From assembly GCF_000478195.2 (NCBI RefSeq), contig NZ_AUZM01000012.1, forward strand, positions 1 to 64,000: a stretch of 64,000 nucleotides of DNA, read 5' to 3'. Both the position numbers and the translations under genes were made by a program. The notes under the pieces were generated by a model. That model did no database searches. It worked only from the letters and a program-made list of their open reading frames with translations, and was not told where the DNA came from. Numbering within the stretch: the stretch's first letter is position 1; each line of letters begins with the position of its first letter. This stretch comes from Lyngbya aestuarii BL J (lineage in GTDB: Bacteria > Cyanobacteriota > Cyanobacteriia > Cyanobacteriales > Microcoleaceae). Positions 50,773 through 55,556 of this stretch are shown here, piece by piece.

Positions 50773-51342
50773 TCATGCGTACTGAGTAACAAAACTCTCT
50801 AAATCACTATTATACCCCTGTCCAACTGCTTTAAATTGCCATTCATTTCCGGCTTTAGACAGACGACCTATTTCTATGGCTGTTTCTCGGGCAAAGTCTT
50901 CTTCTAACTCATAGCGAGTGATTTCGGTTTGAGTCGCTTCATCGTAAATACGGATGAAGGAATTTCTGACTTGTCCGAAATTTTGACGACGGGCTTCGGC
51001 TTGAAATATCGTCACAATAAACACGATTTCTTGAATAGAACCCTCGACTTTTTCTAGGTCTATTCTAATCGTTTCATCGTCTCCACCTCCTTTTCCGGTG
51101 CGGCTATCTCCCGATGACATTACCGCCCCATCAGCAGATTCTAAGTTATTGTAAAATACAAAAAACTTCTCACTCGGGATTTTACCATTTGCCGCTAACA
51201 TAAACACCGAAACATCTAAATCAAATTGATCGCCCGTATCAGAAGCATTAACATCCCACCCGAGTCCAACTCCTGCTGTTTTTAAGCCGGGTGATTCTTT
51301 AGAGAGATTAATTCCTTCGCCTTTTTTTAGATTAATCGTCAT
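50773..51342 (-). CDS. TerD-family protein
   Basis: TerD paralogue of 189 residues from the ATG at 51342 (MTINLKKGEGINLSKES), the start that aligns with the paralogue; a GTG at 51357 adds five residues. It keeps GVGLGWDVNASDTGDQFDLDVSVFML, GGGDDETIRIDL and NFGQVRNSFIRIYDEATQ. First of the three genes on this strand, 44 bases before the next, so it likely leads an operon. Confidence 0.88.
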   Translation of the reverse strand: MTINLKKGEGINLSKESPGLKTAGVGLGWDVNASDTGDQFDLDVSVFMLAANGKIPSEKFFVFYNNLESADGAVMSSGDSRTGKGGGDDETIRIDLEKVEGSIQEIVFIVTIFQAEARRQNFGQVRNSFIRIYDEATQTEITRYELEEDFARETAIEIGRLSKAGNEWQFKAVGQGYNSDLESFVTQYA

Positions 51343-53913: not shown

Positions 53914-55273
53914 GTGGAAATTTCCCTTGAAAGTTTATGGCATCAGGTCTTAGACCGTCTCCAGGTACAACTCGGTGAGCCGACATTCGACACGTGGATC
54001 AAAACGGCGAGTGCGGAACGACTCGAAAATCATTGTTTGGTAATTCGCACGCCTAATCCTTTTGCTCGCAATTGGTTGCAAAAACACTACAAGGAAATTA
54101 TCGCCGAAGCGGCGCAAGATATTTTGGGCTATCCGGTGGAAATTTACGTGACGACTGAAACACAAACAACGCTTGATCAGGCGAAATCACAACGGGTTTG
54201 GCCGTCTACTGTAGCGGAAACGCCTTCAAATCAACGCCTGAAACCGCCTAATCTTAATTCTAAATATGTGTTTTCTCGGTTTGTGGTTGGGGCAAATAGT
54301 CGTTTGGCTCATGCTGCGGCGTTGGCGGTGGCGGAGTATCCTGGACGAGAGTTTAATCCGTTGTTTTTGTGTGGTGGTGTCGGGTTGGGAAAAACCCATT
54401 TAATGCAAGCAATTGGACATTATCGGATTGAAATTAATCCTGATGCTAAGGAGATCGGAAGTTTCTACCGAAAAGTTTACAAATGATTTAATTGCGGCGA
54501 TTCGTAAAGATAGTATGCAAAGTTTCCGCGATCATTATCGGGCGGCTGATGTGTTGTTGGTCGATGATATTCAGTTTATTGAAGGAAAAGAATACACTCA
54601 AGAGGAATTTTTTCATACGTTTAATACGTTGCATGAAGCGGGAAAACAAGTGGTTCTCGCGTCTGACCGTCCTCCGAATCAAATTCCTCGGTTACAAGAA
54701 CGGTTGTGTTCTCGCTTTTCGATGGGGTTAGTGGCTGATATTCAACCGCCTGACTTGGAAACGCGGATGGCAATTTTGCAGAAAAAAGCCGAGTATGAAA
54801 ATGTTCGTCTTTCTGAAGGGGTGGTTGAATATATTGCAACTCGTTACACGTCTAATATTCGAGAATTGGAAGGGGCATTAATTCGGGCGGTTGCTTATAC
54901 TTCGATTTCGGGTTTACCGATGACAGTCGAAAGTATTGCCCCGGTTTTGAGTCCGGCTGAACAACCTCAAGAATCTTCCCCGGAAGCGGTGATTCAAATT
55001 GTTGCTGAAACGTTTAAAGTCTCTGTTGAGGATTTGAAAGGGACGTCTAGACGGCGAGAAATTAGTCTAGCCCGTCAGGTGGCAATGTATTTGATGCGAC
55101 AACATACGGATTTGAGTTTGCCGAAAATTGGGGAATTATTTGGGGGAAAAGACCACACCACGGTTATGTATTCCTGTGAAAAAATTACTCAATTACGCAA
55201 TAAGGATTTAGAGTTAGCCCAAACGCTCCGACAGTTAAGCGATCAAATTAATTATACCAGTCGCTATCATTAG
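53914..55273 (+). pseudogene. dnaA: dnaA, split by a +1 frameshift (replication initiator)
   Basis: The first frame (53914-54486) has the DnaA N terminus SLWHQVLDRLQVQLGEPTFDTWI and the AAA+ start YVFSRFVVGANSRLAHAA, with Walker [14 protein letters not shown]. The second frame (to 55273) resumes with [32 protein letters not shown] (Walker B) and the DNA-binding tail [15 protein letters not shown]. Homologues read DAK-IFY-VSTEKF; here ten bases replace the nine expected, a +1 shift. DnaA is essential, so a true break is unlikely; a sequencing or assembly error is suspected. GTG start with GGAAGGA upstream. Confidence 0.9.
54452..54461 (+). other. Ten-base adapter-like sequence at the dnaA frameshift
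   Basis: AGATCGGAAG sits exactly where the dnaA frame breaks. It equals the first ten bases of the common Illumina read-through adapter. It replaces the expected IFY codons. This suggests leftover adapter in the assembly and not a biological insertion. Confidence 0.7.
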
Positions 55274-55307
55274 CACCACAAAGACAGGGAACAGGCAATA
55301 GGCAACC

Positions 55308-55415
55308 CGCTCTTTAGTTGAATAAAAAGTCAAGCGCGTAGCCGAATTACCCCTAATACATCCTCTTCCATCTTACCGAAAATTCCCCCAATTGTCAATA
55401 TGTTTGATGGCGCCG
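55308..55415 (+). repeat. 108-bp direct repeat, copy 1
   Basis: 108 bases identical to 55449-55556 except one base (G at 55334, A at 55475). The unit begins CGCTCTTTAGTTGAAT and ends TGTTTGATGGCGCCG; the spacing is 141 bases. Intergenic, after dnaA. No protein or known element recognised. Confidence 0.9.
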
Positions 55416-55448
55416 GGAGCGAACACTGGAACACCGGAACAGGGGACT

Positions 55449-55556
55449 CGCTCTTTAGTTGAATAAAAAGTCAAACGCGTAGCCGAATTACCCCTAATAC
55501 ATCCTCTTCCATCTTACCGAAAATTCCCCCAATTGTCAATATGTTTGATGGCGCCG
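55449..55556 (+). repeat. 108-bp direct repeat, copy 2
   Basis: Second copy, 107 of 108 bases identical to copy 1. The two copies are separated by 33 unrelated bases. A third palindromic repeat follows directly at 55566. Such a near-perfect tandem can be biological or an assembly duplication. Confidence 0.9.

Follow-up and report, generated by a model that had tools for sequence, protein, structure and literature searches.

A frame break in dnaA of the draft Lyngbya aestuarii BL J assembly coincides with Illumina adapter bases and is very probably an assembly artefact

The DNA analysed here (the window) is a stretch of 64,000 nucleotides forming part of contig 12 of the draft assembly of Lyngbya aestuarii BL J, which comprises 6,864,627 bases (6.86 Mb) in 437 contigs, with a completeness of 99.96 % and a contamination of 3.26 %. 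A dnaA gene with its nearest relatives in cyanobacteria is located at 53914-55273 on the + strand, divided over two reading frames. Its 5' part (53914-54451) begins with a GTG start and encodes the DnaA_N domain (PF11638) and the first part of the AAA+ domain; the 3' part (54462-55273), which lies in another frame and is open to the stop, encodes the remainder of the AAA+ domain and the DNA-binding domain (PF08299, positions 1-69 of 69). The N-terminal, ATPase and DNA-binding domains are all present. The two parts are separated by AGATCGGAAG (54452-54461, +), which is identical to the start of the common Illumina TruSeq adapter over 10 bases; it takes the place of native codons, with a net gain of 1 nt. 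The first open reading frame (ORF; 53914-54486) is in frame up to this 10-mer, passes through it and terminates at a premature stop at 54484-54486, while the second ORF extends from 54413 to 55273. In profile searches, positions 1-169 of the DnaA model TIGR00362 matched the first piece and positions 173-437 the second; for PF00308, these were positions 1-66 and 69-161. Because the matched positions adjoin in both models, the two pieces are adjoining parts of one protein. The coincidence of the 10-mer with the frame break, pointed out in an earlier note on this DNA, was confirmed in this way. The 10-mer occurs nowhere else in the window, where its chance expectation is 0.15 (at least one copy in 13 of 100 shuffles). 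The adapter match ends after these 10 bases, the next base, a T, departing from the adapter. A search of the whole assembly for a second, intact dnaA, which the earlier note had named as grounds for giving up its reading, returned only the two pieces of the gene at 53914-55273. The DnaA box has the consensus TTWTCCACA, of which the 64-kb window contains 0 copies vs 1.87 expected, a difference too small to be informative.

The break was compared with 109 dnaA loci of relatives, some of which represent one genome counted twice. At the break point, 107 of the 109 read in a single frame through [IV]FYV or a closely similar motif; the search pattern missed the remaining two. The distance between the conserved anchor codons flanking the break is 28 nt in the window vs 27 nt in all 101 loci where both anchors could be located; the other 8 of the 109 were not measurable. 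Native codons have therefore been replaced by adapter bases, about 9 native bases having given way to 10, and the claim of the earlier note that the 10-mer stands where IFY codons are expected holds. The codons that were lost are conserved in relatives. In the assembly as given the frame is disrupted relative to its homologues, as in a pseudogene. Further signs of a pseudogene, extra lesions or relaxed selection, were not seen in dnaA: both halves are otherwise open and under purifying selection. Both are conserved against the closest relatives: compared with one of these (L084), 129 of 179 residues of the left half are identical (dN 0.20, dS 1.45, dN/dS about 0.14) and 233 of 270 of the right half (dN 0.09, dS 1.05, dN/dS about 0.08).

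Across the assembly, AGATCGGAAG is present in 34 copies, with 2 copies of the reversed control and 12-17 expected from Markov models. As 12-17 chance copies are to be expected in a genome of this size, the 10-mer alone is weak evidence for an adapter origin, and 22 of the 34 copies do not extend into the 13-base adapter AGATCGGAAGAGC. Of the latter, 12 exact copies exist in the assembly, none of the reversed control, and 0.04-0.22 were expected from Markov models (orders 1-4) trained on the window. This excess of about 50-fold or more is decisive for a resemblance to adapter beyond chance. At one mid-contig site (L114; contig 2, 143241-143263) the adapter continues to 23 bases, as AGATCGGAAGAGCACACGTCTGA, and the bases after the universal part agree with the forward-specific adapter as quoted by Moeller et al. 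(2024; PMC11536531). In three pairs of sites (L132/L138, L136/L145 and L142/L143) the sequence surrounding the 10-mer is the same in both members; these are repeats or overlapping contigs and were kept in all counts.

Moeller et al. describe the same universal adapter in microbial assemblies, in excess over chance as it is here, and the forward-specific bases that follow it in at least one Lyngbya copy are a further likeness. The adapters reported there were concentrated at contig ends (PMC11536531). Unlike these, all 12 Lyngbya 13-mers are internal to contigs, separated from the contig ends by about 320 bases or more, and some of them disrupt genes. The 13-mer was absent from 54 of the 58 other genomes searched. 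In the assemblies of the four remaining relatives (G012, G013, G019 and G042) a total of 11 hits was obtained, 9 of them within 100 bases of the contig start; the other two may also be near an end.

Reading frames were examined around all 34 copies of the 10-mer. A register switch was defined as long open frames on both sides, on one strand and in different registers, with thresholds of 60, 100 or 150 codons, and 1652 positions spaced along the window served as controls, which are not independent of one another and take in normal boundaries between genes. At 100 codons, 12 of 34 adapter sites switch register vs 13 of 1652 controls; the figures are 13 of 34 vs 18 of 1652 at 60 codons and 9 of 34 vs 13 of 1652 at 150 codons. 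At 100 codons the switch is seen at 5 of 12 sites with the 13-mer and at 7 of the 22 sites with the bare 10-mer, which include dnaA. When dnaA is left out, 11 of 33 sites still switch at this threshold (Fisher p about 5e-14), and for the 21 bare 10-mers other than dnaA p is 4e-8; both values are rough, as the controls are not independent. Five of the 22 sites without a switch at 100 codons lie in a single open frame (L114 and L134 with the 13-mer; L115, L120 and L129 with the bare 10-mer). The other 17 lack a long frame on at least one side, and include L128, in chlL, owing to its left piece of 72 codons. In a coarse scan of the window from 1300 to 62700, the long frames on the two sides were in different registers at seven places: dnaA and six others (near 24.8, 33.8, 39.5, 40.7, 52.2 and 53.5 kb), which on visual inspection resemble normal ends of genes. 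A chance origin of the 10-mer was also considered and was rejected in view of the genome-wide excess of the 13-mer and of the switches found where the adapter occurs elsewhere.

The 11 sites besides dnaA that switch at 100 codons, together with L128, were scanned for protein families on both sides. At 4 of these 12 sites one family spans the adapter, with adjoining or successive parts on the two sides: L128 (see below), L118 (DUF3616, positions 1-175 and 180-327), L135 (an ABC transporter; ABC_membrane, positions 22-134 and 140-273) and L137 (a D-Ala-D-Ala carboxypeptidase; Peptidase_S13, positions 31-120 and 310-437). Only the repeated SLBB domain is common to both sides of L122. No common family was found at the other 7 of the 12 sites: Pfam gave no match on either side at L113 and L116, a match on one side only at L131 and L144, and different families on the two sides at L119, L124 and L141.

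The gene at L128 is chlL, which encodes a subunit of the light-independent protochlorophyllide reductase. Positions 2-68 and 76-267 of TIGR01281 match on either side of the adapter at L128 (contig 44, around 50978-50990), where the bases after the 13-mer read like further adapter sequence, though not as a perfect match. The distance between anchors is 32 vs 27 nt (+5; two loci of relatives could be measured, three could not), and chlL is broken by adapter bases. In purL (L134; contig 78, 888-900), identified by matches to positions 230-500 and 505-723 of NF002290 on the two sides, the adapter is in frame and the reading frame is unbroken, the anchor distance being 36 vs 33 nt (+3; 5 of 5 relative genomes). 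The 23-base copy at L114 is likewise inside a long open frame, with TPR repeats on the one side scanned. The proteins predicted at L134 and L114 carry adapter-coded residues with no frame break as a warning. Replacement comes with a small net gain in each case, of +1 in dnaA, +5 in chlL and +3 in purL: native sequence was lost from the three genes and a slightly longer adapter tail is in its place, which is replacement and not insertion.

Exact adapter bases at the lesion, an excess of adapter across the assembly and lesions at other adapter sites are all found. The frame break in dnaA is very probably an assembly artefact resulting from adapter carry-over (probability about 0.97), and the organism itself most likely carries a normal, unbroken dnaA. 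The 3' end of a short-insert Illumina read would have extended into the adapter, and this tail would have escaped trimming. During the making of the contig or consensus the tail would then have been written over native dnaA bases, turning about 9 of these into 10 and shifting the frame by +1. The loss of native bases in favour of a slightly longer adapter tail fits untrimmed read tails, which probably came in while contigs were joined, gaps were filled or the consensus was called. What counts against an artefact is that the adapter match in dnaA is no longer than 10 bases, that bare 10-mers are only mildly in excess (22 seen), that 22 of the 34 sites show no switch at 100 codons and that the two sides have no family in common at 7 of the 12 sites scanned. 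The trimming or assembly error proposed in the earlier note is supported by the excess of the 13-mer, the 23-base copy at L114 and the register switches, that of chlL included. Its premise that dnaA is essential is unsafe in cyanobacteria, given PMC7198777 and the related genus discussed below, in which 7 of 10 genomes have no detectable copy. The verdict of an artefact follows from the adapter evidence, and essentiality of dnaA is not needed for it.

Gene loss in the phylum is what lends some weight to a genuine recent frameshift, in which dnaA would be on its way out, as in some related cyanobacteria, and the likeness to the adapter would be a matter of chance. Free-living cyanobacteria without dnaA are reported, as are others in which the gene is not essential (PMC7198777). 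As this concerns the same gene in the same phylum, a broken dnaA in Lyngbya is not impossible. In one genus of the same family (g3), no match to PF00308 was found in 7 of 10 genomes (G011, G017, G022, G026, G033, G059 and G060). Among the g3 genomes that are at least 90 % complete these are 6 of 9, G060 being 73 % complete, and two of the seven were assembled in about 5 contigs. An unbroken dnaA of 464 codons is present in the other three (G002, G030 and G061), and to judge from these gene contents dnaA seems to have been genuinely lost in part of this genus. There was also no PF00308 match in G040, G046, G047, G050, G056 and G057, which belong to other families of the order, one each, and are 95-99 % complete. 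Unlike the losses described in PMC7198777, the Lyngbya gene is otherwise open and conserved, and its lesion consists of adapter bases. With about 16 chance 10-mers per 13.7 million positions, or about 1e-6 per position, the odds that one of them coincides by chance with the roughly ten bases at the break are of the order of 1e-5, and adapter sites disrupt other conserved genes of the same assembly. Strong purifying selection on two open halves also speaks against a decaying gene, but a very recent real mutation would leave the same conservation, so that conservation alone does not separate the two readings. On balance a genuine frameshift is very unlikely, and it is just as improbable that the break is real and marks a first stage of dnaA loss in a species whose replication no longer depends on DnaA.

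Programmed +1 ribosomal frameshifting, which would join the two frames with the aid of an internal AAGGAG at the break, is extremely unlikely. The sequence at the break, CTAAGGAGATC, does contain this hexamer, which we take to resemble a Shine-Dalgarno sequence, but its last two bases are the first two of the adapter. The shift is not seen in relatives, in which 107 of 109 loci read in one frame (two were missed by the pattern) with 27 nt in all 101 measurable cases, and the codons lost at the break are conserved among them. That the split gene encodes two separate proteins, the second from an internal start, for which a possible TTG at 54413 upstream of the break is available, is barely conceivable, as the break is inside the AAA+ domain and 45 of the 46 other genomes with a match have one open dnaA frame of at least 440 codons, the 46th (G052) having just a 58-codon C-terminal piece with a stop.

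Carry-over of adapter into the assembly, the favoured explanation, has consequences for comparative work. The loss of dnaA is a topical issue in cyanobacteria, and a gene wrongly recorded as broken in a nearly complete genome could be taken for a real loss. Surveys of gene loss or pseudogenes that make use of this assembly should distrust the surroundings of AGATCGGAAG, with adapter present in chlL, purL and other genes.

Just downstream of dnaA, the window also contains a direct repeat of 119 nt (55297-55415 and 55438-55556), the two copies of which are 96 % identical and have a start-to-start spacing of 141.
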